Positions 1,293 to 26,315 of a stretch of 64,000 nt of DNA are shown here, one piece after another. Positions within the stretch are counted from its first letter, which is position 1. The number at the start of each line of letters is the position of its first letter. The stretch spans positions 1-64,000 of the IMG/VR virus record IMGVR_UViG_3300005532_000006. One strand, written 5' to 3'. Both the position numbers and the translations under genes were made by a program. The notes beneath the pieces are model-generated. The model saw only the letters and a program-made list of their open reading frames with translations, had not been told where the DNA came from and searched no databases. Source of the DNA: a virus.

Positions 1293-1733
1293 TCACCACC
1301 GCCGCGCGGCGAAGGCCTGGCCCGTCGTCGCGCCGTAGAGGCTGACAGGGCCGGCCGGCTTGTAGCCGGGGGCGGTGACAAACATGCCGCCGTTGGCCGC
1401 GATCTGCAGGCTCGCGCCGCCGGCCGACGCAGCGCCGACATCGGAGATCCACAGCGCCGCCGAGGAATTGTTCTGCACCAGGAAGCCTGTCGGCGGCACC
1501 GCGCCGCCGAACAGCGTCTGCGCCGCGCCGCCGGCCGCGACCGTGCCGCTGCCATCCGCCGCTGGCGCGACCGTGGTCGGCACCACCGGCAGCGGGTTCT
1601 GCGGCCCGACCGGCGCCGCGACGCCCGCCGTCACGGAGCCGGCGGCGTGCAGCGGCACGAGGTTGCCGTTGGCATCGGCGACGGTGGCGAGCGCCTGCAC
1701 CGTCGTGTTGGCATCCTTCACCAGAAGACTCAT
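1293..1733 (-). CDS. Small virion-associated protein of unknown function
   Basis: 146 aa from ATG at 1733, overlapping the terminase stop by 4 bases (ATGA). The sequence is Ala-, Gly- and Val-rich with short beta-strand-like segments such as TGFLVQNNSSAALWISD, and ends GQAFAARRW. This beta-sandwich-like layout, with hydrophobic strands ending in an aromatic tail, is common in small phage structural proteins near tail fibres. It sits between the second large terminase gene and the tail spike and is probably co-transcribed with both. No enzymatic motif is visible, so function is unassigned. Confidence 0.7.
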   Translation of the reverse strand: MSLLVKDANTTVQALATVADANGNLVPLHAAGSVTAGVAAPVGPQNPLPVVPTTVAPAADGSGTVAAGGAAQTLFGGAVPPTGFLVQNNSSAALWISDVGAASAGGASLQIAANGGMFVTAPGYKPAGPVSLYGATTGQAFAARRW

Positions 1734-3067
1734 CGGCCCTCTCCTTTCCCGGCGAGCTGGCGGTAGACCTCGAAAATCCCCTCGCCGCCTTTCGGCTCGA
1801 CCAGCAGTTCGGTCAGGGCCCAGACCAGCGCATCGACCCGATCGGGCGAAAACCCCGCCTCGGCCGGGTCGAAATCGCTGGAAAAGGCGCACATCTGGTC
1901 TTCGAGGGCAGGCATCGCGCCGACATGGTGAACGCGGCCTTGTTCGTAGAGCGCCGCCACCGGCTCGGCGCGTGCGACCTTGCCGCGCGAGGCGCGAACC
2001 GCGGCGAAGGCGACGTTCGGGTCGATCATCCGCAAGGTTGCCTCGACCATCTCGCCGCCGTTGTTGACCTCGCCGACGATGCGGTCGGCGCCGTGGGCGC
2101 GATAGGCGGCAATCGCCGTCTTCGCCCATTCCGGCGGCGAATACCGCCCCGAGGCGTCGGCGAGGACGTAGGCCGCGCCCGAGCCGTCCTTGCCGGCGAC
2201 CACGATGCCGGTCTCGTCGGCGTCCTCGCCGCTGCTGACCGCCGGGTCGATCGCGACGACGACCCTCGTCAGCTCCGGCGCCGCCGCGACGCGCGCCGCG
2301 TCGATGACGCCGTGGCTCCACAACGCCCCCGGCACGTCCTCGAGGATTTCCGCCTCGAGCTCCTGGCGGCCGAGGCGCGTGCCGGCGTAGCGGCGGACGA
2401 TCTGCGACAGGAAAGCGGGCGCGAGATTGGCGCGGTTTTCATCCGTCGAGCCGCGGATTACGACTACGGTCGGATCGGCGACGAGCGCGCGAATCAGCTT
2501 CGTCGGCCGCGGCGTCGTCGTTACGACGGCGCGCGGGTCCTGCCCGAGGCGCAGCCCCATCATCAGCATGTCCCACGCTTCAGGGTAGCGCCACGCCGCC
2601 AGCTCATCGCACCAGGCGAGGTCGTGCTGCGGGCCGCGCAGCCGTTCCGGCTCGTCGGCGCTGTAGGTCGTCGCGATCGCGCCGCTCTGCCACGTGATCC
2701 GCCGTTTCGACGGCTCGTAAAGCGGCCGATCCCACGGCGGCGCAATGGCGAGGATGCCGCTTTCGCCCTCGACGATGACGTCGCGCGCATCGGCGGCGGT
2801 CGGCGCCACAAGCGCGACCCGCACCGCACGGCCCGCCCCGACTTCGGCGCGGACGAACTCGGCGCCGGTGCGGGTCTTGCCGAAGCCGCGGCCGGCCAGC
2901 AGCAGCCAGATGCGCCAGTCCCCCTCGGGAGCCAGCTGGCTCGCGCGCGCCCAGAAGCGCCAGTTATGGTTGAGGTGCTTGCATTGCTCCTGCGTGAGGC
3001 CCGCCAGCAGGTTACTCCGCAGCGCCTCCGGCAGCGAGGCGAGCCAGGCGGCGTGCAAGGACCTCAC
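1730..3067 (-). CDS. terL: Terminase large subunit (second copy, Terminase_6-like)
   Basis: 445 aa, GTG start at 3067. DNA-packaging ATPase and nuclease. The Walker A motif AGRGFGKTRTG is at about residues 58-68, the Walker B-like LAWCDE at 150-155, and the C-terminal RNase H-fold nuclease begins at VVVAIDP near residue 270, followed by ASRGKVARAEPV and the late acidic residue in RVDALVWALTEL. Length and motif order are complete, so the gene looks functional. It overlaps the truncated small-subunit gene by 56 bases. A second, divergent large terminase lies at 61613-62980; the nuclease halves of the two are clearly related while the ATPase halves differ. Two full TerL genes in one phage is unusual. 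Confidence 0.92.
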   Translation of the reverse strand: MRSLHAAWLASLPEALRSNLLAGLTQEQCKHLNHNWRFWARASQLAPEGDWRIWLLLAGRGFGKTRTGAEFVRAEVGAGRAVRVALVAPTAADARDVIVEGESGILAIAPPWDRPLYEPSKRRITWQSGAIATTYSADEPERLRGPQHDLAWCDELAAWRYPEAWDMLMMGLRLGQDPRAVVTTTPRPTKLIRALVADPTVVVIRGSTDENRANLAPAFLSQIVRRYAGTRLGRQELEAEILEDVPGALWSHGVIDAARVAAAPELTRVVVAIDPAVSSGEDADETGIVVAGKDGSGAAYVLADASGRYSPPEWAKTAIAAYRAHGADRIVGEVNNGGEMVEATLRMIDPNVAFAAVRASRGKVARAEPVAALYEQGRVHHVGAMPALEDQMCAFSSDFDPAEAGFSPDRVDALVWALTELLVEPKGGEGIFEVYRQLAGKGEGR

Positions 3068-3929: not shown

Positions 3930-4559
3930 TCACGCCTGCAGTTCGGCAGACCAGTAGAGCCAGCCGCCGAAATCGTCCTTGATGTCGGCCGGCAGGAACT
4001 CGAGCCCGGCCCGGAGCAATTCCGCTCGGCTCGGCCGCCGCGGCGGCCTCAGTGGGCGCATCTGCCCCGCCGACGGCTTGCCTTTGCGGCCGGAGTAGTT
4101 CGGCAGGCTGTTGGCCTTCAGCGCGTTGCACCGCAGGCAGGCCGTGACGATGTTCTCCCACACGGTTTTGCCGCCGCGGGAGCGGGGGGTCACGTGGTCG
4201 TACGTCAATTCCGGCGACGGGAAGCGCTTGCCGCAGTAGCAGCAGGCCATCCGATCCCGCAGCAGGATGTTGCGGCGGCAGAACTTGACCTCACCCGAGA
4301 TCGGCGCGTACTCGCGCAGCATGATCACCTTCGGGATCGCGATCGTCGTCGAGGGCGACCGGAAGAACGCGTCCTCCCAAGTGTCGACGATCGAAGCCCG
4401 ATCGCGCCAGATCGCCGATACGGCGTCTTGTGCTGGGATGATGCTCAGCGGGAACGTGCTGAGCGGATTGCCGTCGGCGTTGAGCACGAGACAACGATGC
4501 TCGGCCGGGCGCAGCGATCTTCGCTGGTGGTGCTCGGAAAGCCGAGCGGCGGCGGTCAT
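3930..4559 (-). CDS. HNH endonuclease
   Basis: 209 aa from ATG at 4559. The HNH core has a zinc-binding CCYCGKRF near residue 110, the catalytic LTYDHVTPRSRGGKTVWEN (Asp-His, then Asn), and a second Cys pair in CLRCN. The N-terminal 90 residues (CLVLNADGNPLS, AISA-like helices) resemble the lead domain of standalone phage and bacterial HNH nucleases that make a metal-dependent cut. It lies 22 bases beyond the 3' end of the tRNA array and next to a terminase set; HNH nucleases adjacent to terminases often assist packaging cleavage. It could alternatively be a homing-type element that inserted next to the tRNAs. Confidence 0.9.
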   Translation of the reverse strand: MTAAARLSEHHQRRSLRPAEHRCLVLNADGNPLSTFPLSIIPAQDAVSAIWRDRASIVDTWEDAFFRSPSTTIAIPKVIMLREYAPISGEVKFCRRNILLRDRMACCYCGKRFPSPELTYDHVTPRSRGGKTVWENIVTACLRCNALKANSLPNYSGRKGKPSAGQMRPLRPPRRPSRAELLRAGLEFLPADIKDDFGGWLYWSAELQA

Positions 4560-4581
4560 GTCGGCCTCCCTTGTGACGGTA

Positions 4582-4655
4582 TGGAGCTGACGGTCGGGAT
4601 CGAACCGACATCGGCGCATTACGAGTGCGCTGCACTGCCCTTGTGCTACGCCAGC
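4582..4655 (-). tRNA. tRNA-Thr(CGU)
   Basis: Cloverleaf with acceptor GCTGGCG/CGTCAGC, anticodon loop CTCGTAA on a GCGCA/TGCGC stem, and T-loop TTCGATC. CCA is encoded. This is the last gene of the leftward array. All conserved positions (U33, U54, U55) are present. Confidence 0.93.
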
Positions 4656-4660
4656 ATATC

Positions 4661-4734
4661 TGGTGCGGGCAGAGGGAATCGAACCCTCGTCAACGGCTTA
4701 AAAGGCCGTAGCTTGTCCTTCCAGCTATACCCGC
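4661..4734 (-). tRNA. tRNA-Lys(UUU)
   Basis: Acceptor GCGGGTA/TGCCCGC, anticodon loop CTTTTAA on ACGGC/GCCGT, T-loop TTCGATT, CCA encoded. Standard class I structure of 74 bases. Confidence 0.93.
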
Positions 4735-4738
4735 GGAG

Positions 4739-4815
4739 TGGTGCGCGACCCGAAACTCGAACTCGGAACATCCGGAATTTGAAGCCGGTGCCTCTGCCAG
4801 TTGGGCTAGTCGCGC
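4739..4815 (-). tRNA. tRNA with Leu anticodon CAA on a class I body
   Basis: 77 bases, acceptor GCGCGAC/GTCGCGC, discriminator A, CCA encoded. The D-arm GCC...GGC fixes the anticodon loop as TTCAAAT, giving CAA, with a C-T mismatch closing the loop. The variable loop is only 5 bases (ATGTT), whereas bacterial leucine tRNAs have a long variable arm. A shift by one would read UCA, but the D-arm spacing disfavours it. Charging identity is therefore uncertain. Confidence 0.75.
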
Positions 4816-4819
4816 GGGA

Positions 4820-4895
4820 TGGGGCGCCCGGTGAGGATCGAACTCACAATCTCCCGGTTCGGAGCCGGGTGCACGGTCCATCGTGCTGCGAGCGC
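4820..4895 (-). tRNA. tRNA-Arg(CCG)
   Basis: Acceptor GCGCTCG/CGGGCGC, anticodon loop CTCCGAA on CCCGG/CCGGG, T-loop TTCGATC, CCA encoded. Standard 76-base class I tRNA reading CGG. Confidence 0.92.
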
Positions 4896-4902
4896 GTGAT
4901 GA

Positions 4903-4974
4903 CGAGCCTGCGAGGAATCGAACCCCGATCCGCCGGGTAGAAGCCGGCTGCACTGTCCATTGTGCTACAGGCCC
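4903..4974 (-). tRNA. tRNA-Arg(UCU)
   Basis: Acceptor GGGCCTG/CAGGCTC with one G-T pair, anticodon loop CTTCTAC on GCCGG/CCGGC, T-loop TTCGATT. The 3' end is followed by TCA, so CCA is not encoded and must be added after processing. Only this and Val(UAC) lack it in the array. Confidence 0.9.
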
Positions 4975-4981
4975 GTGAGGT

Positions 4982-5053
4982 TGGCGCCCCGCCGAGGAGT
5001 CGAACCCCGCGTCCCGGGTTCGTAGCCCAGGCCCCAGATCCGCTGGGCGAGGC
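4982..5053 (-). tRNA. tRNA-Arg(ACG), shortened D-arm
   Basis: 72 bases with CCA. Acceptor GCCTCGC/GCGGGGC, anticodon loop CTACGAA on CTGGG/CCCGG, T-loop TTCGACT. Only 23 bases precede the anticodon stem instead of 26, so the D-arm is short and the usual TA linker at positions 8-9 is replaced. The ACG anticodon would need A34-to-inosine editing by host TadA to read all CGN codons it normally serves. Confidence 0.85.
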
Positions 5054-5062
5054 GAAAGGAAT

Positions 5063-5136
5063 TGGCCGCGCAGACGGGATTTGAACCCGCGTTTCCCTGT
5101 TTGAAGGACAGGTGTCCTGCCTTAGACGACCGCGCG
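5063..5136 (-). tRNA. tRNA-Glu(UUC) with C33
   Basis: Acceptor CGCGCGG/CTGCGCG, D-arm GTC...GAC as in bacterial tRNA-Glu, anticodon loop CCTTCAA on CCTGT/ACAGG, T-loop TTCAAAT, CCA encoded. Position 33 is C rather than the near-universal U that forms the U-turn. Confidence 0.87.
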
Positions 5137-5137
5137 A

Positions 5138-5212
5138 TGGTAGGCCCGGCCGGTAACGCTCCGGCACCTCCGCCGTGTCGAGGCGGCGCACAACCTTCTA
5201 TGCGACGGGCCT
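5138..5212 (-). tRNA. tRNA-Val(GAC) with C33 and atypical T-loop
   Basis: Acceptor AGGCCCG/CGGGCCT, D-arm GCAT...GTGC, anticodon loop TCGACAC on CCGCC/GGCGG, CCA encoded. Position 33 is C. The T-loop is AGCGTTA on GCCGG/CCGGC, so U54, U55 and A58 are all replaced although all stems pair fully. Confidence 0.78.
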
Positions 5213-5213
5213 G

Positions 5214-5286
5214 TACCCGGTAGAGGATTCGCACCCCTGCTGACGCGGTGTGTAGGACCGCCGCTCTGCTGCTGAGCTAACCGGGC
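5214..5286 (-). tRNA. tRNA-Val(UAC) with C33 and G55, no encoded CCA
   Basis: Acceptor GCCCGGT/ACCGGGT, D-arm GCTC...GAGC, anticodon loop CCTACAC on GCGGT/ACCGC, T-loop TGCGAAT. Position 33 is C and position 55 is G. One base separates its 3' end from the 5' end of Val(GAC), so CCA is not encoded and both ends must be cut precisely. Confidence 0.83.
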
Positions 5287-5291
5287 GATGA

Positions 5292-5369
5292 TGGTCGGGG
5301 CGGGCGGATTTGAACCGCCGGTCTCCTGCTTCCGAAGCAGGCACTTTGGCCAGGCTAAGCTACGCCCCG
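5292..5369 (-). tRNA. tRNA-Pro(CGG)
   Basis: Acceptor CGGGGCG/CGCCCCG as in bacterial proline tRNAs, anticodon loop TTCGGAA on CCTGC/GCAGG, T-loop TTCAAAT, CCA encoded. Its 5' base directly abuts the CCA of Arg(CCU), leaving no spacer. Confidence 0.92.
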
Positions 5370-5441
5370 TGGCGCCGACACTCGGAATCGAACCGAGGCT
5401 CCTGCCTTTAGGAGAGGCGGGCGCGATCCGTCGCTGTCGGC
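5370..5441 (-). tRNA. tRNA-Arg(CCU), shortened D-arm
   Basis: 72 bases with CCA. Acceptor GCCGACA/TGTCGGC, anticodon loop CTCCTAA on a 4-bp stem GCCT/AGGC, T-loop TTCGATT. Only about 22 bases precede the anticodon stem: the D-arm can form just GCGA/TCGC around a 4-base loop and the 8-9 linker is essentially missing. Confidence 0.82.
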
Positions 5442-5447
5442 CGGAAA

Positions 5448-5523
5448 TGGTCCGGAAGGAGGGACTCGAACCCCCGATATCCTCGCTCCAAACGAGGCGG
5501 TCTAGCCGCTGACCTACTCCCGG
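5448..5523 (-). tRNA. tRNA-Pro(UGG)
   Basis: Acceptor CCGGGAG/CTTCCGG, D-arm GGTC...GACC, anticodon loop TTTGGAG on CCTCG/CGAGG, T-loop TTCGAGT, CCA encoded. Its 5' end lies one base after the rtcB stop codon, so RNase P trimming would define the 3' end of the rtcB message. Confidence 0.92.
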
Positions 5524-5524
5524 C

Positions 5525-6763
5525 TTATCCTTTTACGCACAACACTTGACGAAGCTGGTGCACGATATCGACCAGATCGGCCTGTGCCGCCATCACCGTA
5601 TCGATATCCTTGTACGCCATTGGCGTCTCATCAATGACGCCCTCATCCTTGCGACACTCGACGCCGGCGGTTGCACGAACGTGATCATCGAGCGTGAACA
5701 GCTTCTTGGCCTCAGAACGGCTCATCTTCCGGCCAGCGCCGTGCGAGCATGACATGAAGCTGTCGGGATTGCCCTTGCCGCGCACGATGTAAGAGCGCGC
5801 ACCCATCGAACCGGGAATGATGCCGAGGTCGCCCTCGCGCGCCCTCACGGCGCCCTTGCGTGTGAGCAGCACATTCTGGCCGAAATGGTTTTCGCGGGCG
5901 ACGTAGTTGTGATGGCAATTGACCGCTTCTTCGTTCCACGTGATTCCGGGCTTGCCGAGCGCGCCGACAACCGCGCGCAGAGTCGCATCGAGCATGACGC
6001 GGCGGTTCTCGACCGCAAAATCCTGCGCCCAACTCACCGCTTGCATGTAGTCGTCAAATGCTTCGCTGCCTTCCGGCAGATAGGCCAAATCTTGGTCCGG
6101 CAGGTTAATGAACCAGCGCTTCATGTCGGCCTTGGCGCGGTCGATGAAAAAGCTGCCGATGGCATTGCCGATGCCGCGCGAACCCGAGTGCAGCATGATC
6201 CAGACGCGCTGTTCCTCATCTAGGCAGACCTCGATGAAGTGGTTGCCGGTGCCGAGCGTGCCGAGATGGTGCGGAGCACGCGCCGAGGCTCGCGTAAGTT
6301 TTGGATGCTTCTCGACGATCGCAGCCAGCCTTGCGGCGAGCGACTGGTTGCCGTGCTTGCCGATCATGTAGAGCACGTTCGCCGGCAATTCGCCCCACGC
6401 GCCGCGGTCGTTGATGCCGCCGTTATCGGTGCGGCCGTGCGGCACCGACGCCTCGATCGCGGCACGCATCGGCGCGAGGTTGTCGGGCAAGTCCGAGGCG
6501 GTCAGCGACAGCCGCGCCGCCACCATGCCGCAACCGATATCGACCCCGACCGCAGCCGGGATAATCGCGCCCTTCGTCGCGATAACCGAGCCGACCGTCG
6601 CGCCCATCCCCCAATGCACATCCGGCATCGCGGCGACATGCTTGTAAATGAACGGCAGCCCCGCGACGTTGCGGAGTTGATCAATGGCCATGCGCTCGAC
6701 CGGGACATCTTTCGTCCACATTTTGATCGGCTTCCCGGCGTCCGCGATTACCTCGTAAGACAC
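5525..6763 (-). CDS. rtcB: RNA-splicing ligase RtcB
   Basis: 412 aa, GTG start at 6763 preceded by GAGGAGAT. RtcB joins RNA 2',3'-cyclic phosphate or 3'-phosphate ends to 5'-OH ends using GTP and manganese. The metal-site motif VGVDIGCGM (Asp-Cys) is near residue 75; TGNHFIEV and LHSGSRGIGN supply metal-binding His residues; and SCSHGAGRKMSR near residue 343 carries the His that is guanylylated. All key residues are present and the length is normal for the compact RtcB class. The gene lies inside the tRNA array, co-directional with it, so cleaved tRNAs are its likely substrates. The array's GTG start and abutting tRNA suggest co-transcription. Confidence 0.97.
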   Translation of the reverse strand: MSYEVIADAGKPIKMWTKDVPVERMAIDQLRNVAGLPFIYKHVAAMPDVHWGMGATVGSVIATKGAIIPAAVGVDIGCGMVAARLSLTASDLPDNLAPMRAAIEASVPHGRTDNGGINDRGAWGELPANVLYMIGKHGNQSLAARLAAIVEKHPKLTRASARAPHHLGTLGTGNHFIEVCLDEEQRVWIMLHSGSRGIGNAIGSFFIDRAKADMKRWFINLPDQDLAYLPEGSEAFDDYMQAVSWAQDFAVENRRVMLDATLRAVVGALGKPGITWNEEAVNCHHNYVARENHFGQNVLLTRKGAVRAREGDLGIIPGSMGARSYIVRGKGNPDSFMSCSHGAGRKMSRSEAKKLFTLDDHVRATAGVECRKDEGVIDETPMAYKDIDTVMAAQADLVDIVHQLRQVLCVKG

Positions 6764-6789
6764 AGGCCTATCTCCTCGGGAAGTTGATA

Positions 6790-6863
6790 TGGCGCTCGCA
6801 GGCGGGATCGAACCGCCGTTCCGGCATCGACAGTGCCGTGTCCTGCCATTGAACGATGCGAGC
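6790..6863 (-). tRNA. tRNA-Asp(GUC)
   Basis: Acceptor GCTCGCA/TGCGAGC, anticodon loop CTGTCGA on CGGCA/TGCCG, T-loop TTCGATC, discriminator G, CCA encoded. Lies 26 bases upstream of the rtcB start in the direction of transcription. Confidence 0.93.
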
Positions 6864-6939
6864 TCTTGAGGGTGCCGCGGGCGCCTGCTCTTGGACCTAT
6901 GGCGCCGGCGCGGCGCGCCCGATCGTCACCGGGCGGTTC

Positions 6940-7013
6940 TGGTAGGGCCGTGCGGAGTTGAACCGCATCCTGCCGGTTAAGAGCCGGCTGCTCGACCGAT
7001 GAGCTACGACCCC
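6940..7013 (-). tRNA. tRNA-Lys(CUU)
   Basis: Acceptor GGGGTCG/CGGCCCT, D-arm GCTC...GAGC, anticodon loop CTCTTAA on GCCGG/CCGGC, T-loop TTCAACT, CCA encoded. Confidence 0.92.
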
Positions 7014-7017
7014 AAGC

Positions 7018-7093
7018 TGGTACTCCTGGCCTGTGCTGCCCAGGCATCTCGCGCTTATCGGGCGCGCGTTCTCGGCTGTTGAACTACAGGAGC
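7018..7093 (-). tRNA. tRNA-Ile(GAU) with C33 and atypical T-loop
   Basis: Acceptor GCTCCTG/CAGGAGT, D-arm GTTC...GAAC, anticodon loop CCGATAA on CGCGC/GCGCG, CCA encoded. Position 33 is C. The T-loop on GCCTG/CAGGC is GGCAGCA, which lacks U54, U55 and A58 but keeps C56. Confidence 0.8.
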
Positions 7094-7100
7094 ATTTTGG

Positions 7101-7184
7101 TGGTGCGGAGGTGTGGTGCTGCCCCACTCCCCGAAGGACGGGTTTTACAGACCCGCTGCCGGAAGCTGCCGGCTTTCCCTCCGC
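7101..7184 (-). tRNA. tRNA-Tyr(GUA), class II, atypical T-loop
   Basis: 84 bases. Acceptor GCGGAGG/CCTCCGC, anticodon loop CTGTAAA closed by CGGGT/ACCCG, long variable arm with a TTCG-capped hairpin as usual for bacterial tRNA-Tyr, CCA encoded. The T-loop is GGCAGCA, identical to that of Ile(GAU). Confidence 0.87.
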
Positions 7185-7190
7185 AATGAT

Positions 7191-7265
7191 TGGTGCTGAC
7201 GAGTGGACTTGAACCACTGACCTTCCCCTTACCAAGGGGATGCACCGCCGCTGTGCTACGTCAGC
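7191..7265 (-). tRNA. tRNA-Thr(GGU)
   Basis: Acceptor GCTGACG/CGTCAGC, D-arm GCAC...GTGC, anticodon loop TTGGTAA on TCCCC/GGGGA, T-loop TTCAAGT, CCA encoded. Acceptor nearly identical to Thr(CGU). Confidence 0.93.
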
Positions 7266-7268
7266 AGA

Positions 7269-7356
7269 TGGAGGAAGGTGGAGGCATCGAACCTCTGTCG
7301 CAGAGCGACACTATGGTTTAGCAAACCATTCGGGGGAGCCTACCCCAGCACCTTCC
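7269..7356 (-). tRNA. tRNA-Ser(GCU)
   Basis: 88-base class II tRNA. Acceptor GGAAGGT/ACCTTCC, anticodon loop TTGCTAA on ATGGT/ACCAT, long variable arm, T-loop TTCGATG, CCA encoded. Confidence 0.93.
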
Positions 7357-7426
7357 GTCGTCCCTTCCTGGTGTATCGCTTGCCGCACGACACGACCTTG
7401 TGGCCGAGCCGGCGCAACGCACGAGC

Positions 7427-7514
7427 TGGCGGAGAGCGAGGTACTCGAAACCCAGTCCGTGAGGACCCATCCCGCTTCGAACGGGCGGTGGTGCGCCTGC
7501 CCACTTCACTCTCC
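7427..7514 (-). tRNA. tRNA-Ser(CGA)
   Basis: 88-base class II tRNA. Acceptor GGAGAGT/GCTCTCC, anticodon loop TTCGAAG on CCCG/CGGG with a G-A outer mismatch, long variable arm, T-loop TTCGAGT, CCA encoded. Confidence 0.87.
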
Positions 7515-7519
7515 AAGAT

Positions 7520-7607
7520 TGGCGGAGCGTGATCGCATCGAACGATCGCCGCAGTTGCGGCGCTGCCGTTTTCAAAACGGTGCGGGGAGCCAACCCCAGC
7601 ACGCTCC
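7520..7607 (-). tRNA. tRNA-Ser(UGA)
   Basis: 88-base class II tRNA. Acceptor GGAGCGT/ACGCTCC, anticodon loop TTTGAAA closed by CCGT/ACGG, long variable arm (GCGCCGCAA...), T-loop TTCGATG, CCA encoded. Confidence 0.92.
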
Positions 7608-7609
7608 AG

Positions 7610-7696
7610 TGGAGGATGGCGTCGCTGCCGACGCGAACACCTTGCGGTGCCAACCGCTTTCCAAGCGGCGCCGGAGGCCGCTCCGGTTCACCATCC
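7610..7696 (-). tRNA. tRNA-Ser(GGA), atypical T-loop
   Basis: 87-base class II tRNA. Acceptor GGATGGT/GCCATCC, anticodon loop TTGGAAA on CCGC/GCGG, long variable arm, CCA encoded. The T-arm reads GCGTC-GGCAGC-GACGC, so the usual TTCRA loop is replaced by a GGCAGC core of the Ile(GAU)/Tyr kind. Confidence 0.84.
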
Positions 7697-7702
7697 CAAA
7701 AC

Positions 7703-7781
7703 TGGTACCCCACCGCGGATTCGAACCGCGAACCTCCGCCTTCTGAGGGCGGCGCCTCTGCCGGAGTTGGGCTAGTGGGGC
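7703..7781 (-). tRNA. tRNA with Leu anticodon CAG on a class I body
   Basis: 79 bases. Acceptor GCCCCAC/GTGGGGT, discriminator A, anticodon loop CTCAGAA on CCGCC/GGCGG, variable loop AGGTT (5 bases), T-loop TTCGAAT, CCA encoded. The anticodon is leucine but the long variable arm expected of bacterial tRNA-Leu is absent. Confidence 0.82.
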
Positions 7782-7783
7782 GC

Positions 7784-7861
7784 TGGTACGCGCGGCCGGA
7801 TTCGAACCGGCACTGCCGAGCGCCTCGGGCTCGTGCCTCCTACCGATTGGGCTACGCGCGC
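7784..7861 (-). tRNA. tRNA with Leu anticodon GAG on a class I body, C33
   Basis: 78 bases. Acceptor GCGCGCG/CGCGCGT, discriminator A, anticodon loop CCGAGGC on CGAGC/GCTCG, variable loop GCAGT, T-loop TTCGAAT, CCA encoded. It combines two anomalies: a short variable arm and C at position 33. Confidence 0.78.
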
Positions 7862-7868
7862 TTGATCT

Positions 7869-7951
7869 TGGTGCGGGCGACAGGAGTTGCACCTGCACGC
7901 TTGCGGCGGCGGGGTTTAAGCCCGCTGTGTCTGCTGTTCCACCACGCCCGC
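7869..7951 (-). tRNA. tRNA-Leu(UAA), class II, G55
   Basis: 83 bases. Acceptor GCGGGCG/CGCCCGC, D-arm GTGGAACAGCAGACAC as in bacterial leucine tRNAs, anticodon loop CTTAAAC on GCGGG/CCCGC, long variable arm, T-loop TGCAACT (G at 55), CCA encoded. Its normal architecture contrasts with the other three leucine-anticodon tRNAs. Confidence 0.9.
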
Positions 7952-7958
7952 GAGAAAG

Positions 7959-8033
7959 TGGTCGCCCCGAGGGGTGTTGATCCCCTACCTCCCGGATGAG
8001 GGCCGGGTATCCAGACCGCTAGACGACGGGGCG
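7959..8033 (-). tRNA. tRNA-Glu(CUC) with C33
   Basis: Acceptor CGCCCCG/CGGGGCG, anticodon loop CCCTCAT on CCCGG/CCGGG, T-loop ATCAACA on AGGGG/CCCCT, CCA encoded. Position 33 is C and position 54 is A. Confidence 0.82.
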
Positions 8034-8040
8034 CTGGATT

Positions 8041-8112
8041 TGGAAGCCCGCCTCGGGGTCGAACCGAGCCGCACGGCTTCAAAGGCCGCGATACCCTCCT
8101 GGGCCACGGGCC
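8041..8112 (-). tRNA. tRNA-Gln(UUG), shortened D-arm
   Basis: 72 bases. Acceptor GGCCCGT/GCGGGCT, anticodon loop CTTTGAA on GCGGC/GCCGT, T-loop TTCGACC, CCA encoded. The D-arm is reduced to about CCC-AGGA-GGG. Confidence 0.84.
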
Positions 8113-8121
8113 ATGAGTGAA

Positions 8122-8196
8122 TGGAAGCGAACCGGGGAGTCGAACCCACGATTTGCGCGTTCAGAGCGCGCCGTCCTGCCGTTGAACGAGTTCGCC
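8122..8196 (-). tRNA. tRNA-Gln(CUG)
   Basis: Acceptor GGCGAAC/GTTCGCT, anticodon loop CTCTGAA on GCGCG/CGCGC, T-loop TTCGACT with two weak T-stem pairs, CCA encoded. Confidence 0.88.
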
Positions 8197-8197
8197 G

Positions 8198-8273
8198 TGG
8201 TGCCGCGGCTCGGACTTGCACCGAGGGCCAATCGCTTACAAGGCGATTGCTCTGCTGCTGAGCTACGCGCGGC
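8198..8273 (-). tRNA. tRNA-Thr(UGU), G55
   Basis: Acceptor GCCGCGC/CCGCGGC with a C-C mismatch at pair 7-66, D-arm GCTC...GAGC, anticodon loop CTTGTAA on ATCGC/GCGAT, T-loop TGCAAGT on CTCGG/CCGAG (G at 55), CCA encoded. Confidence 0.88.
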
Positions 8274-8274
8274 T

Positions 8275-8350
8275 TGGGGCGGCGCGCGGGTGCTGGCCCC
8301 GCTTCTTCCCCTCCACAGGGGGACGTGTCCGCTGGTCCACCAGCGCCGCC
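8275..8350 (-). tRNA. tRNA-His(GUG), atypical T-loop
   Basis: Acceptor GCGGCGC/GCGCCGC with the extra G at -1 opposite C73 that HisRS requires, anticodon loop CTGTGGA on TCCCC/GGGGA, CCA encoded. The T-loop is GCCAGCA on GCGGG/CCCGC. Confidence 0.88.
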
Positions 8351-8360
8351 ACGATGCGAA

Positions 8361-8436
8361 TGGAGTTGCCGGTCGGAGTTGCACCGACATAAGACCCGCT
8401 TTGCAGGCGAGCGCCTCGCTGTTCGGCCACGGCAAC
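8361..8436 (-). tRNA. tRNA-Cys(GCA), G55
   Basis: Acceptor GTTGCCG/CGGCAAC, discriminator U as in bacterial tRNA-Cys, anticodon loop CTGCAAA on CTCGC/GCGGG, T-loop TGCAACT on GTCGG/CCGAC, CCA encoded. Confidence 0.9.
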
Positions 8437-8440
8437 AAAT

Positions 8441-8513
8441 TGGCACCGGCGGAGCAGAATCGAACTCTCCTTCGCGGGTTTGGAGTCCGCGTTGTTCACC
8501 AGAACACGCCCGT
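8441..8513 (-). tRNA. tRNA-Trp(CCA), shortened D-arm
   Basis: 73 bases. Acceptor ACGGGCG/CGCCGGT with a G-G mismatch, discriminator G, D-arm reduced to TTC-TGGT-GAA, anticodon loop CTCCAAA on GCGG/CCGC, T-loop TTCGATT with a bulge in the T-stem, CCA encoded. Less well paired than its neighbours. Confidence 0.8.
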
Positions 8514-8519
8514 ATGAAA

Positions 8520-8595
8520 TGGCTCCCATCCCAGGTACCGCCCCTGGCTGCATCCGCTTAACAGGCGGCGCCGTTCGCTTGCTCGGTCGATGGGA
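8520..8595 (-). tRNA. tRNA-Asn(GUU), atypical T-loop
   Basis: Acceptor TCCCATC/GATGGGA, discriminator G as usual for tRNA-Asn, anticodon loop CTGTTAA on CCGC/GCGG, T-loop GGCGGTA on CCAGG/CCTGG, CCA encoded. Confidence 0.85.
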
Positions 8596-8601
8596 ATGAA
8601 C

Positions 8602-8677
8602 TGGAGCGGGTAGCCGGACTCGAACCGGTCATCATCACCTTGGAAGGGTGAGGCCCTAGCCTTTGGACGATACCCGC
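8602..8677 (-). tRNA. tRNA-Gly(UCC)
   Basis: Acceptor GCGGGTA/TACCCGC, discriminator U as in bacterial glycine tRNAs, anticodon loop CTTCCAA on TCACC/GGTGA, T-loop TTCGAGT, CCA encoded. Confidence 0.93.
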
Positions 8678-8686
8678 GTTGAATGA

Positions 8687-8762
8687 TGGTGCCGAGCCGA
8701 GGGATCGCACCTCGATATCCGGTTTTTCGGACCGGCGCATGCACTAGCACTGCCAGCTCGGC
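8687..8762 (-). tRNA. tRNA-Phe(GAA) with C33 and G55
   Basis: Acceptor GCCGAGC/GCTCGGC, anticodon loop CCGAAAA on CCGGT/ACCGG, T-loop TGCGATC on CGAGG/CCTCG, CCA encoded. Position 33 is C and position 55 is G. Confidence 0.84.
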
Positions 8763-8764
8763 GA

Positions 8765-8836
8765 TGGTTGCGGCGGCCGGAGTTGCACCGGCGCGACGCG
8801 GCTTATGAGACCGCGCGGGAACTGTTCCTCACCGCA
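8765..8836 (-). tRNA. tRNA-Met(CAU), shortened D-arm, G55
   Basis: 72 bases. Acceptor TGCGGTG/CGCCGCA, anticodon loop CTCATAA in a GCGG/CCGC stem, T-loop TGCAACT on GCCGG/CCGGC, CCA encoded. A paired U1-A72 and the lack of three G-C pairs above the loop argue against an initiator. A lysidine-modified Ile role cannot be excluded. The D-arm is very short. Confidence 0.8.
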
Positions 8837-8844
8837 TCAAGAAA

Positions 8845-8940
8845 TGGTAGGCGTCCTCGGTGCCGCCCCGAGCCGTCCCCGCTGATCTGGCAGGTCTCGG
8901 CCGTTTATAAAACGGCCCCGCGCTGCTGGCGCCGACGCCC
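8845..8940 (-). tRNA. Long tRNA with Ile anticodon UAU
   Basis: 96 bases. Acceptor GGGCGTC/GACGCCT, anticodon loop TTTATAA on GCCGT/ACGGC, T-loop GGCGGCA on CTCGG/CCGAG, CCA encoded. About 26 bases lie between the anticodon and T stems, a class II length normally seen only in Leu, Ser and Tyr tRNAs. UAU itself is rare in bacteria, which use lysidine-modified CAU to read AUA. Confidence 0.7.
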
Positions 8941-8947
8941 GATGAAT

Positions 8948-9023
8948 TGGAGCGGCCAGAGGTGGTCGAAACCTCATCTCGGCATTGGCAACGCCGCGCT
9001 CTCAGCCGTTGAGCTATGGCCGC
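8948..9023 (-). tRNA. tRNA-Gly(GCC)
   Basis: Acceptor GCGGCCA/TGGCCGC, discriminator U, D-arm GCTC...GAGC, anticodon loop TTGCCAA on CGGCG/TGCCG, T-loop TTCGACC, CCA encoded. Confidence 0.92.
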
Positions 9024-9030
9024 AAAAGGA

Positions 9031-9104
9031 TGGTGGAGATGGTCGGAATCGAACCGACATTTTCTGCTTGCAGGGCAGAAGTCCTCCCGTTGAACGACAT
9101 CCCC
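9031..9104 (-). tRNA. tRNA-Ala(UGC) with C33
   Basis: Acceptor GGGGATG/CATCTCC, anticodon loop CCTGCAA on TCTGC/GCAGA, T-loop TTCGATT, CCA encoded. Position 33 is C. The acceptor lacks the G3-U70 pair that identifies tRNA-Ala in most organisms; it has G3-T70 at the DNA level, which is read as G-U in RNA, so the identity element is in fact present. This is the first gene of the array. Confidence 0.87.
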
Positions 9105-9536: not shown

Positions 9537-10388
9537 TCAGCGCGCCCGACGCAGCTCTGGCGACGCAATCTTCTTTGGCACGCGTCGGTACCAGACGAGC
9601 GCAAGCGCTGCGTAGAGCGGCCGTTCGTGCGTCAGCGCCATCGCCTCGGCCTCGCGCCGCTCATAGCCGGACGACGCCGCAACGATCGGGCCGACCGCGG
9701 CGGGATCCCAGTTGCCGCGGTAGTCGGGGTCGAACATCAGGAGTTCGAGCGCCCGCACTTCGATCATCTGGATCGGCCGCCGCGTCTTCAGCAGCGACAG
9801 CGCGGTGCGCAAGGCACCAGGGCCATGCGAGCGGTAGAAGTCGATGACGGTCCCGACCGCAACCGTGTCGCCCGGCTTGTAGAGGTCCTTGCGCGGCGGC
9901 GGCGAGCGCGGCACGCGGACACCCGTCTCGTCCATGACCTTCTGGATCGCGATGATTTCGGGGTCGCCGGCGACGAGGGCGGAATGGAACAGCTGCGGTT
10001 TCGTAACCGCGGTGCGGTCGGTGTTGATCGCGATGAACGACTCGGCCTGCCGCGCGACCGAACGCGGCCGGCTGACCAGCACCGGGATCAGCTCGACGGC
10101 GGGGTGCGTCGCGGCGATCGTCGCCGAGTGCTGGCCGTTGGTGATGACGAGGCCGTGCGGCGTCTCGATGACGTTCGGCGCCTGGAACTTCGACCAGTCG
10201 AACCGGCCGAGGATCCGCCGGATCAGGGCGGTGCCTTCCTTGCCGATCCGGCGCTGGTAGGTGTCGTCTACCCACAACGTCGCGGGATCGACCCAGCGCA
10301 GCTCCGGCGGATCGCCGACATCTTCGTTGAAGCGGACCCCATGCAGGGAGGCCGGCGCCAGCGATGCGATCGGGCGCAAGCCGCTCAC
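9537..10388 (-). CDS. ParB/DUF6551-like protein
   Basis: 283 aa with a GTG start at 10388 overlapping the sigma factor stop (GTGA), which argues for translational coupling. The N-terminal domain has the ParB/Srx layout: a conserved LWVDDTYQR near residue 35, then VIETPHGLVITNGQHSATI near residues 75-93 (equivalent to the ParB box for CTP or phosphate handling), then SFIAINTDRTAVTK. The C-terminal half is helical and lacks a HTH I can recognise. DUF6551-type proteins are frequent in phages but uncharacterised. A DNA-binding or CTP-dependent regulatory role is inference. The terminator at 9220-9253 follows. Confidence 0.8.
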   Translation of the reverse strand: MSGLRPIASLAPASLHGVRFNEDVGDPPELRWVDPATLWVDDTYQRRIGKEGTALIRRILGRFDWSKFQAPNVIETPHGLVITNGQHSATIAATHPAVELIPVLVSRPRSVARQAESFIAINTDRTAVTKPQLFHSALVAGDPEIIAIQKVMDETGVRVPRSPPPRKDLYKPGDTVAVGTVIDFYRSHGPGALRTALSLLKTRRPIQMIEVRALELLMFDPDYRGNWDPAAVGPIVAASSGYERREAEAMALTHERPLYAALALVWYRRVPKKIASPELRRAR

Positions 10389-10912
10389 AGGCCGAGATGC
10401 TCGCGCTCGTCGCGGCCGAGCTCGGCGCCGTGCACCAGCGCGCGCAACGCCTGGCGGGCGCGGGACAGCCGCGATCGCACGGTCCCGACCGGGATCGCCT
10501 CGTACGCCGCCATCTCCTCGTAGTTGTCGGCGCTGAGCGCGGCCTGCATGAGGAGCCGCCGCTGCCCCCGCGGCAACCGGCGCATCGCCGCCTCGACCTC
10601 GCTCAGCAGCCGCCGCGCTTCGGGGTCGACAACGGCGCGGACCTGCTCGACCTGCTCCGGTTCGAGTTCGATCGTGCTCTCGCGAACCGCTTTCCTCACC
10701 GAATTGATGCGCTGGTTGTGCGCGAGCGTCATGAGCCAACCCGTCAGGTTGGTGCCCGGCTCGAACAGATGCCGCTTCGTGAGGGCGCGCATGATCGTCT
10801 GCTGCACCAGATCCTCGGCGTCGGCCGGATTGCGGGTGAGGCTGTAGGCATAGCGCCGCAGCTTGGGAAGGCACGCCAGGAGGTCGGCGTCGGAGAAGGG
10901 TTGCGTCGTCAT
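10385..10912 (-). CDS. ECF sigma factor (EcfG-like)
   Basis: 175 aa from ATG at 10912. Region 2 includes YAYSLTRNPADAEDLVQQT and LFEPGTNLTGWLMTLAHN; region 4 has LPRGQRRLLMQAAL and an HTH ending GTVRSRLSRARQAL. The FxPGTNLxxWL phrase is characteristic of the alphaproteobacterial general-stress EcfG group. It directs RNA polymerase to particular promoters, and in a phage it may switch host polymerase to phage promoters. It overlaps the ParB-like gene by 4 bases. No anti-sigma factor is next to it. The target promoters cannot be named from this sequence. Confidence 0.93.
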   Translation of the reverse strand: MTTQPFSDADLLACLPKLRRYAYSLTRNPADAEDLVQQTIMRALTKRHLFEPGTNLTGWLMTLAHNQRINSVRKAVRESTIELEPEQVEQVRAVVDPEARRLLSEVEAAMRRLPRGQRRLLMQAALSADNYEEMAAYEAIPVGTVRSRLSRARQALRALVHGAELGRDEREHLGL

Positions 10913-25082: not shown

Positions 25083-26315
25083 TCAGGCGGCGGCGACCGT
25101 GCCCGGCACGGGCACCTGGATCAGGGTCAGCGCCAGATCGGCATTGGAGCCGTTGATCAGCACCGAGGGGACGCTGACGTTGATGACGCCCGGAACCGAC
25201 AGCGCGACATCGACCGCCGCGGCGACGGACACCGTGATCGGCGTCGGCGCGGTGCCGGCCGGCAGGGTCTGGAGGTAGGCGACCCAGCTCTGCCACATCG
25301 TGTTGAGCCAGTTTGCCCAGGCAGCGTCGACCGCCTGCACCACCGTGCCGTGGTTGAGGCCAGGCGCCGAAGTGATCGTCCCGGATAGGCTCACCGTCAC
25401 GGTCGTGGGGCCGTAGACGCCCTGCGGCCGCACCGTGAACGCCCGAACAGCGTAGATGGCGTTGTAGACGGCGGTCAGGAGGCTCGACGGCGGGTTGTGT
25501 GAGCCGTCGTCGATGACGACGAAGAACGAGCCGTAGTCGGTGCCGAGGCCGGGGTAGTCCTTGTTCTCGACGAGCAGGTAGAACAGCCCCTGCTGGACGT
25601 TGGCGATGGCGCTTTCGATTGCGGTTTCGTCGGCGGAGGGCAATGCCGCGATCGCGAGCTGGAAGCGCTGGCGGAAGGCGTCGTCGTTCTCGGCCGCCAT
25701 GCCGCCGGTAAAGGCGGCGACATTCGTGACCGAGTCGAAATTGCTGATCGTGCCGTCGACGATGGAGGTGATCGTGTTGGCGGCGACGTTGCCGACCGTG
25801 CCCGCATTGACCGCGACCGCCGGGACGATGATGCTCGCGGTGCCGGCCGGGCAGACATAGCTGCCGGTCGCCGGGTTGTAGTAGGCGTTCGCCGTGTCGA
25901 GGGTGACGGTGAAGCCCTGCGTGCCGTCGGCGCTTTGCAATTGCGCCGTGCCCGCCGGGCCGATCGTGACGACACCTTGCAACGATGTGTCGCCCCGCGT
26001 GAAGGTGACGGTCCCGGTGGCGTAGGTCGCCGGCAGGCGGGTGAAGGCGCTCTGGCCGATCGGCAACGGCCACTGCGCCATCCAGCTGTCGAGGTCGGCG
26101 CCGGTGGAGGTCTGGGCCCGCGTCAATGCCAAGAGCCGCAGCCCCATGCGCTGAAACCACAGCGCCATGAAGGACGAGGCCTCGCCGATCGCCAAGCCCA
26201 CAGAGCCGACCGAGAAGTCGAGCGCCGTCTTTGAAGCCGCTTGCGCGGCGGCGGCGAACGATTGGACGAACTGCTGGAACGAGCGGGTAACGATCGTCGG
26301 CAGGGCAATCGCCAT
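25083..26315 (-). CDS. Baseplate J-like protein
   Basis: 410 aa from ATG at 26315. Typical gpJ features: an N-terminal helix RSFQQFVQSFAAAAQAASK, then GADLDSWMAQWPLP, a beta-rich middle with GTVTFTRGDT and TAGTVGNVAANTI, then GMAAENDDAFRQRFQLAIAA and a helical C-terminus with VYNAIYAVRAFTVRPQGVY. It forms the wedge ring of contractile-tail baseplates. Located 3 bases downstream of the gp25-like gene, as usual. Confidence 0.93.
   Translation of the reverse strand: MAIALPTIVTRSFQQFVQSFAAAAQAASKTALDFSVGSVGLAIGEASSFMALWFQRMGLRLLALTRAQTSTGADLDSWMAQWPLPIGQSAFTRLPATYATGTVTFTRGDTSLQGVVTIGPAGTAQLQSADGTQGFTVTLDTANAYYNPATGSYVCPAGTASIIVPAVAVNAGTVGNVAANTITSIVDGTISNFDSVTNVAAFTGGMAAENDDAFRQRFQLAIAALPSADETAIESAIANVQQGLFYLLVENKDYPGLGTDYGSFFVVIDDGSHNPPSSLLTAVYNAIYAVRAFTVRPQGVYGPTTVTVSLSGTITSAPGLNHGTVVQAVDAAWANWLNTMWQSWVAYLQTLPAGTAPTPITVSVAAAVDVALSVPGVINVSVPSVLINGSNADLALTLIQVPVPGTVAAA

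Follow-up and report, generated by a model that had tools for sequence, protein, structure and literature searches.

tRNA Array and RtcB Ligase

The window analyzed here, i.e., the whole stretch of 64,000 nucleotides (nt) formed by bases 1–64,000 of the 90,867-base IMG/VR virus record IMGVR_UViG_3300005532_000006, carries a tightly packed, head-to-tail array of tRNA genes (4582–9104, minus strand) with a single interruption, the RNA ligase gene rtcB (5525–6763, minus strand), after whose stop codon tRNA-Pro(UGG) directly follows (5448–5523, minus strand). The array is best explained as a recurrent phage module in a tRNA-rich form, with rtcB and tRNA-Pro(UGG) as its core. In phages, this pairing recurs on scattered branches of the RtcB tree, and the linked tRNA is biased towards adenine at position 37 of the anticodon loop (A37), where bacterial copies have guanine (G37) almost without variation. 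We see about an even chance that the pair is a repair-and-replacement module that counters a nuclease producing cyclic-phosphate ends and hitting mainly tRNA-Pro(UGG).

A first-pass annotation had read 38 minus-strand tRNA genes by hand in these 4.5 kilobases (kb), with anticodons for all 20 amino acids. ARAGORN did not reject most of them, calling 29 tRNAs within 4582–9104, all on the minus strand and with agreeing anticodons, while the Rfam tRNA model gave 20 matches at the gathering score over the whole window and 24 above it when the array alone was searched with laxer filters. A tRNA covariance model (R1) that we built from 55 tRNAs of the studied loci, with compensatory changes in 21 of 21 pairs, recovered 37 minus-strand cloverleaves scoring at least 14.8 bits, against a top plus-strand (noise) match of 16.0 bits. 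The scores of many of these 37 are partly circular because they entered the R1 training set through a second contig of the same virus (L001); the eight genes that R1 adds to the ARAGORN list are not in that set. These eight are tRNA-Phe(GAA) (8687–8762; 51.2 bits with R1 and 45.8 bits with Rfam), tRNA-Ile(GAU) (7018–7094; 48.2 bits), tRNA-His(GUG) (8275–8349; 37.5 bits), tRNA-Trp(CCA) (8441–8513; 29.4 bits), tRNA-Asn(GUU) (8520–8595; 25.3 bits), tRNA-Ser(GGA) (7611–7697; 18.5 bits), tRNA-Tyr(GUA) (7101–7184; 15.6 bits), and tRNA-Ser(CGA) (7427–7515; 14.8 bits), the weakest of the 37. The last three score near the R1 noise level because tRNAs with a long variable arm, such as this tRNA-Tyr, fare poorly under a class-I model, and their support comes partly from folding (a class-II cloverleaf in the case of tRNA-Ser(GGA)) and from their place in the array.

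The remaining gene, a probable class-II tRNA-like gene with the anticodon UAU (8845–8940), possibly tRNA-Ile, reached only ~6 bits with R1. Its sequence adopts, unaided, a class-II cloverleaf of five arms whose acceptor stem has 7 base pairs, and it runs on into CCA; its T-loop (GGCGGCA) is non-canonical. The hand-read count is thus upheld for 37 tRNAs, with tRNA-Ile(UAU) as a probable addition, and the anticodon set does cover all 20 amino acids. The array is not due to chance. Further tRNA genes in the gaps at 6864–6939 and 7357–7424 were ruled out, as neither folded into a cloverleaf; the former, between tRNA-Asp and tRNA-Lys, instead holds two strong hairpins (−39.8 kcal/mol). No introns and no split or permuted tRNAs that would need RtcB for their maturation were seen in the array, and an Rfam match to permuted transfer-messenger RNA (tmRNA) occurred only at noise level.

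The rtcB gene, placed by the first-pass annotation between tRNA-Asp(GUC) (6790–6863) and tRNA-Pro(UGG) as complete and with its key residues, proved to be so. It encodes a 412-amino-acid RNA 3′-phosphate/5′-OH ligase that matches PF01139 over residues 29–412 (440 bits) and aligns with solved RtcB chains in the PDB. Its catalytic residues are conserved, with Asp75, Cys78, Asn174, His175, His192, His285, and His341 each present in 245 or more of the 248 viral homologues, so that the enzyme appears intact. The gene starts with GTG just downstream of a GAGGAG ribosome-binding site. The window holds the rtcB-tRNA-Pro(UGG) module as we define it, with tRNA-Pro(UGG) at most 350 nt from rtcB and bearing A37 (anticodon loop TTTGGAG). 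In searches of the 90.9-kb record, which may be incomplete, neither rtcA (RTC, PF01137) nor archease (PF01951) was matched, while control genomes were; a search for PF09511 (Rnl1) gave no match in the record and none in the control genomes either.

Linkage of rtcB to tRNA-Pro(UGG)

Viral contigs were scanned with five different RtcB queries, and the genes recovered, together with those of nine named phages, came to 248 distinct viral rtcB genes after clustering at 90% identity, mostly on uncultivated contigs with 3–10 kb of flank. Because the first 80 loci suggested the linkage and later ones were used to pursue it, the p-values given here, which pool both, contain the discovery set; the later scans, taken alone, give the same pattern. 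By ARAGORN, a tRNA lies within 350 nt of rtcB in 37 of the 248 loci, and tRNA-Pro(UGG) is among these neighbors in 24 of the 37. Counted over unique tRNAs, tRNA-Pro(UGG) makes up 24/69 of those near rtcB versus 3/187 of those far from it (Fisher p=1e-12), and 21/40 of those within 100 nt, set against a phage tRNA background of 6/329 (a TerL-based background set was discarded as it held too few tRNAs). Two checks that take account of which tRNAs a locus carries agree with this. Where several tRNAs including tRNA-Pro(UGG) occur at a locus, it is the one nearest to rtcB in 9 of 13 cases (3.9 expected, p=0.002), and where the tRNA is solitary, it is tRNA-Pro(UGG) in 15 of 18 cases near rtcB versus 0 of 22 far from it.

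On an RtcB tree of 300 tips (FastTree), the 27 Pro-linked tips (24 viral and three from bacterial-genome contigs) are scattered, requiring 25 parsimony changes, a count that is sensitive to sampling. The linked tRNA lies upstream of rtcB in 12 cases, downstream in 14, and inside the gene in one, nearly always on the rtcB strand, and the surrounding genes are otherwise unshared bar a few close pairs. A single inherited rtcB-Pro cassette is therefore unsupported, given the scattered tips, differing sides, varied tRNA bodies, and differing neighbors. Local horizontal spread is likely; loci L012 and L153, for example, carry near-identical tRNA-Pro genes on opposite sides of diverged rtcB genes.

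Searching the viral loci with R1 lengthened the ARAGORN list by only a few tRNAs, including a truncated tRNA-Pro(UGG) with A37 that lies a few nt downstream of rtcB in L019 and the tRNA-Pro(UGG) remnant of L103 described below. In L599, a complete in-frame tRNA-Pro(UGG) with A37 (4340–4416) lies within rtcB (3974–5221), in a loop of variable length; its maturation would cut the rtcB mRNA. In the same locus (5591–6103) and in L595 (5236–5754), rtcB is followed by a LAGLIDADG-like open reading frame (ORF) that ends in a copy of the RtcB C-terminal tail, a pattern that would fit insertion of a homing endonuclease at the rtcB 3′ end. Four related loci (L024, L027, L040, and L058) have rtcB after tRNA-Lys(CUU), with tRNA-Glu(CUC) next in three of the four in place of tRNA-Pro(UGG). 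Two partial tRNAs, a tRNA-Asn in L009 (5922–5994) and a tRNA-Pro(UGG) remnant in L103 (4256–4333), have degenerate 5′ and intact 3′ halves on the strand opposite the adjoining rtcB, resembling attachment-site remnants in their sequence. Among 80 rtcB loci from bacterial genomes, most had no nearby tRNA, the exceptions including short contigs of metagenome-assembled genomes. One of these, assigned to Candidatus Sulfotelmatobacter (L656:40-2376), holds twelve tRNAs followed by rtcB and then tRNA-Pro(UGG), a junction matching that of the window, and is probably of viral origin.

Position 37 of tRNA-Pro(UGG)

Among 27 unique linked tRNA-Pro(UGG) genes, 22 have adenine at position 37, compared with 20 of 103 unlinked phage copies (p=3.5e-9), the latter drawn from viral loci without rtcB in the sampled stretch; these mostly keep G37 (83 of the 103). 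The contrast persists after clustering of the tRNAs at 85% (p=2e-6) and 75% (p=0.004). Across 100 genomes from a single bacterial phylum (proteobacterial), nearly all matched tRNA-Pro(UGG) genes read TTTGGG, i.e., G37, and one had A. Base composition was rejected as the cause, as A37 holds from 28% to 67% guanine plus cytosine (GC). Linked tRNA-Pro(UGG) genes with an encoded CCA have C1, G72, and A73 in 21 of 21 cases, the typical ends of bacterial tRNA-Pro, and since all three are kept, charging by the host prolyl-tRNA synthetase is likely.

Proposed Function and Alternatives

In the proposed mechanism, a host nuclease would cut tRNA anticodon loops during infection, leaving 2′,3′-cyclic phosphate and 5′-OH ends, with tRNA-Pro(UGG) as its commonest target across hosts. 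RtcB would reseal the cut ends, and the phage would supply fresh tRNA-Pro(UGG) whose A37 loop may be a poor substrate for the nuclease or no substrate. The phage studied here, if its array is expressed, would widen this protection to nearly every tRNA, so that its translation could go on despite a damaged host pool. The first-pass annotation had likewise suggested a replacement tRNA pool with a repair ligase, still the best reading and now partly supported by the tRNAs for rare codons, the recurrent rtcB-tRNA-Pro(UGG) link, and the altered loop, and it had named PrrC, VapC, and colicin D as types of nuclease whose cuts RtcB would reseal. Colicin-type nucleases leave 2′,3′-cyclic phosphate/5′-OH ends, whereas PIN-domain nucleases such as VapC are understood to leave 3′-OH/5′-phosphate ends, which RtcB does not seal; by end chemistry, the PrrC and colicin types fit and VapC does not. 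PrrC leaves 2′,3′-cyclic phosphate/5′-OH ends (PMC3400036) and depends on base 37 of tRNA-Lys being modified (PMC12409363). Escape from host nucleases has been proposed for phage tRNAs whose anticodon loops are altered (PMC10264068), and tRNA-Pro(UGG) itself is cleaved by human RNase L (PMC13191261).

A broader proposal, possible though somewhat doubtful, is that there is a widespread, undescribed bacterial defense that cuts the tRNA-Pro(UGG) anticodon loop in dependence on G37 or its 1-methylated form (m1G37), leaving cyclic-phosphate ends, and that many unrelated phages answer it with RtcB and an A37 tRNA-Pro(UGG). For such a defense, tRNA-Pro(UGG) would be a favored choke point, since in E. 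coli it is the essential tRNA for proline, able to decode all four of its codons. Why phages carry tRNAs is a long-open question, and the physiological substrates of RtcB are poorly defined in bacteria and phages alike. One ligase repeatedly paired with one tRNA and one base change gives a precise prediction, namely a nuclease that reads position 37 of tRNA-Pro(UGG) and that the phage pair would defeat, and this could lead to a new defense system.

Several observations weigh against a defense directed at tRNA-Pro(UGG). No bacterial nuclease specific to tRNA-Pro(UGG) and leaving cyclic-phosphate ends was found in the papers searched, so that the nuclease stays hypothetical, and for AriB, tRNA-Pro(UGG) is just one of several probable cleavage products (PMC12409363). 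Most phage rtcB genes are unaccompanied, with no tRNA within 350 nt in 211 of the 248, and locus sampling followed RtcB similarity, so these counts do not describe a random sample. The link runs from rtcB to tRNA-Pro(UGG) and not the reverse, as rtcB lay beside the tRNA in 0 of 102 phage tRNA-Pro(UGG) loci. Furthermore, when the regions flanking rtcB were read in 18 named phages, none had tRNA-Pro(UGG) within 350 nt of the gene, and the Tunturiibacter phage Tunturi_5 (PP885688) has two tRNA-Pro(CGG) genes, starting 48 nt downstream of rtcB, in its place. A lean towards A37 is also seen, albeit in small numbers, among the other TrmD-type tRNAs of rtcB phages, and A37 may signal freedom from m1G37 methylation rather than escape from a nuclease.

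These last points favor an explanation by translation support without defense, which we regard as unlikely overall. The array would replace host tRNAs during shut-off or tune codon supply, rtcB would serve general RNA maintenance, and A37 would spare tRNA-Pro the host's m1G37 methylation and so prevent +1 frameshifts during rapid tRNA production; m1G37 on tRNA-Pro does suppress +1 frameshifting (PMC13191261). Large arrays also occur at loci where no rtcB was found, as in L374 (6418–11327), a viral locus of 69% GC with 36 ARAGORN tRNAs and no rtcB in the sampled stretch, which could be a natural control for arrays without a ligase. Together with the 211 unaccompanied genes, this locus speaks against rtcB being tied to large arrays, and we reject it as their standard partner. 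Translation support leaves unexplained why rtcB prefers tRNA-Pro(UGG) over other tRNAs and why most unlinked phage copies keep G37, and the rtcB-Pro pairs span loci from 28% to 67% GC. Codon optimization, raised earlier as an alternative for this array, is rejected as its sole purpose, because the array serves codons that the phage hardly uses. Codon use in the phage is strongly GC-ending, yet the array holds tRNAs for AGA (1% of Arg codons) and TTA (1% of Leu codons), and the unproven tRNA-Ile(UAU) gene would read ATA (4% of Ile codons). Coverage of nearly the whole code would fit a replacement pool, not codon tuning.

The two other explanations considered are less probable. Genome mechanics, with tRNA-Pro(UGG) as an integration site or with homing endonucleases moving rtcB and tRNAs in no functional pairing, would suit the attachment-site-like tRNAs of L103 and L009 and the HNH and LAGLIDADG-like ORFs near some loci. 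It is nevertheless improbable and does not predict A37: most linked genes form full cloverleaves that frequently include CCA, they share the strand of rtcB and occur both before and after it, their tRNA bodies vary, and no integrase or other neighbor is common to them. An attack made by the phages themselves, in which they would cut host tRNA-Pro(UGG) with its G37 for shut-off while their own A37 copy and RtcB provide immunity and repair, accounts equally well for the A37 mark and the ligase pairing. Since the neighbors of Pro-linked rtcB share no nuclease gene, though one could lie elsewhere in the genomes, we hold this to be very improbable. Repair and replacement of tRNA-Pro(UGG) against a host nuclease is the explanation we prefer.

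Gene Content of the Array

All genes of the array are on the minus strand, and those listed here were called by both ARAGORN and R1; the genes described above take their places among them by coordinate. The array begins with tRNA-Ala(UGC) (9031–9104), followed upstream of rtcB by tRNA-Gly(GCC) (8948–9023), tRNA-Met(CAU) (8765–8836), tRNA-Gly(UCC) (8602–8677), tRNA-Cys(GCA) (8361–8436), tRNA-Thr(UGU) (8198–8273), tRNA-Gln(CUG) (8122–8196), tRNA-Gln(UUG) (8041–8112), tRNA-Glu(CUC) (7959–8033), tRNA-Leu(UAA) (7869–7951), tRNA-Leu(GAG) (7784–7861), tRNA-Leu(CAG) (7703–7781), tRNA-Ser(UGA) (7520–7607), tRNA-Ser(GCU) (7269–7356), tRNA-Thr(GGU) (7191–7265), and tRNA-Lys(CUU) (6940–7013), with tRNA-Asp(GUC) the last before the ligase gene. 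Beyond rtcB and tRNA-Pro(UGG), both flanking tRNAs likewise being called by the two programs, lie tRNA-Arg(CCU) (5374–5444), tRNA-Pro(CGG) (5292–5369), the sequence of which also has A37, tRNA-Val(UAC) (5213–5286), tRNA-Val(GAC) (5138–5212), tRNA-Glu(UUC) (5063–5136), tRNA-Arg(ACG) (4982–5058), tRNA-Arg(UCU) (4901–4975), tRNA-Arg(CCG) (4820–4895), tRNA-Leu(CAA) (4739–4815), tRNA-Lys(UUU) (4661–4734), and, as the last gene, tRNA-Thr(CGU) (4582–4655). An HNH endonuclease gene (3930–4487) is located directly downstream of the array; HNH genes are frequent next to phage tRNA regions.

Virus and Genome Context

The window encodes a T4-type terminase (1730–3067), a baseplate wedge protein (25083–26315), a tail sheath protein (40179–42083), and a Mu-type portal (PF06074; 60033–61592), from which the virus is identified as a contractile-tailed phage on gene content. 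A second contig, IMGVR_UViG_3300027773_000004 (L001/L252), is the same virus, with 14,763 nt at 100% identity, and reaches ~7 kb past the left end of the window. The array was verified in one virus only, this contig being a second assembly of it, and a search for close relatives with the array among TerL relatives recovered the same virus alone. Just left of the window, the contig encodes a PF04860 portal (L252:14360-15808), of a different family from the window's PF06074 portal; two portal families in one virus would possibly point to a composite genome or an assembly join. A search around the array turned up no sigma-70-like promoter, which carries little weight because the phage has a sigma-factor gene of its own (10385–10912).

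Comparison with Known Systems

Phage tRNA arrays that include rtcB have precedents in the cultivated phages Lacusarx, Bongo, and Tunturi_5, and RtcB was proposed in 2011 to guard cluster K1 phages against host tRNA cleavage (PMC3203893). No description of the rtcB-tRNA-Pro(UGG) pairing or of its A37 mark was found in the one open-access library searched. The reasoning that phage tRNAs stand in for host tRNAs destroyed by nucleases also underlies the work on altered anticodon loops in phage tRNAs (PMC10264068), which does not mention RtcB, and that on retron-evading phage tRNAs (PMC11555353). These examples come from mycobacteriophage C1 and enteric phages, and no rule for tRNA-Pro(UGG) with A37 was found in the parts considered. 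Jumbo phages similarly carry their own tRNAs plus RtcB or Rnl ligases that join cleaved tRNAs, whereas the record of the phage described here is ~91 kb and a tRNA-Pro pairing was not found in the portion of that account considered (PMC7824862).

Among individual phages, those of cluster K1 have rtcB with a tRNA, as in the window, but with a single one, and in the Mycobacterium cluster M phage Bongo, a tRNA array runs up to rtcB, which follows tRNA-Asp and tRNA-Glu rather than tRNA-Pro (PMC3203893). The RtcB proteins of Bongo and the K1 phages are ~44–49% identical to that of the window. Tunturi_5, an isolated phage, has rtcB inside its tRNA array; it differs in its 309-kb genome, in an RtcB only ~31% identical to the window's, and in a tRNA-Pro(UGG) that lies 2 kb away and has G37. 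The Sphingobium phage Lacusarx resembles the window phage in its high-GC alphaproteobacterial host and in the tRNA repair suggested for its RtcB, while differing in its size of 130 kb, its tadA, sigA, and tmRNA genes, and its 24 tRNAs compared to the 37–38 in the window (PMC5648845).

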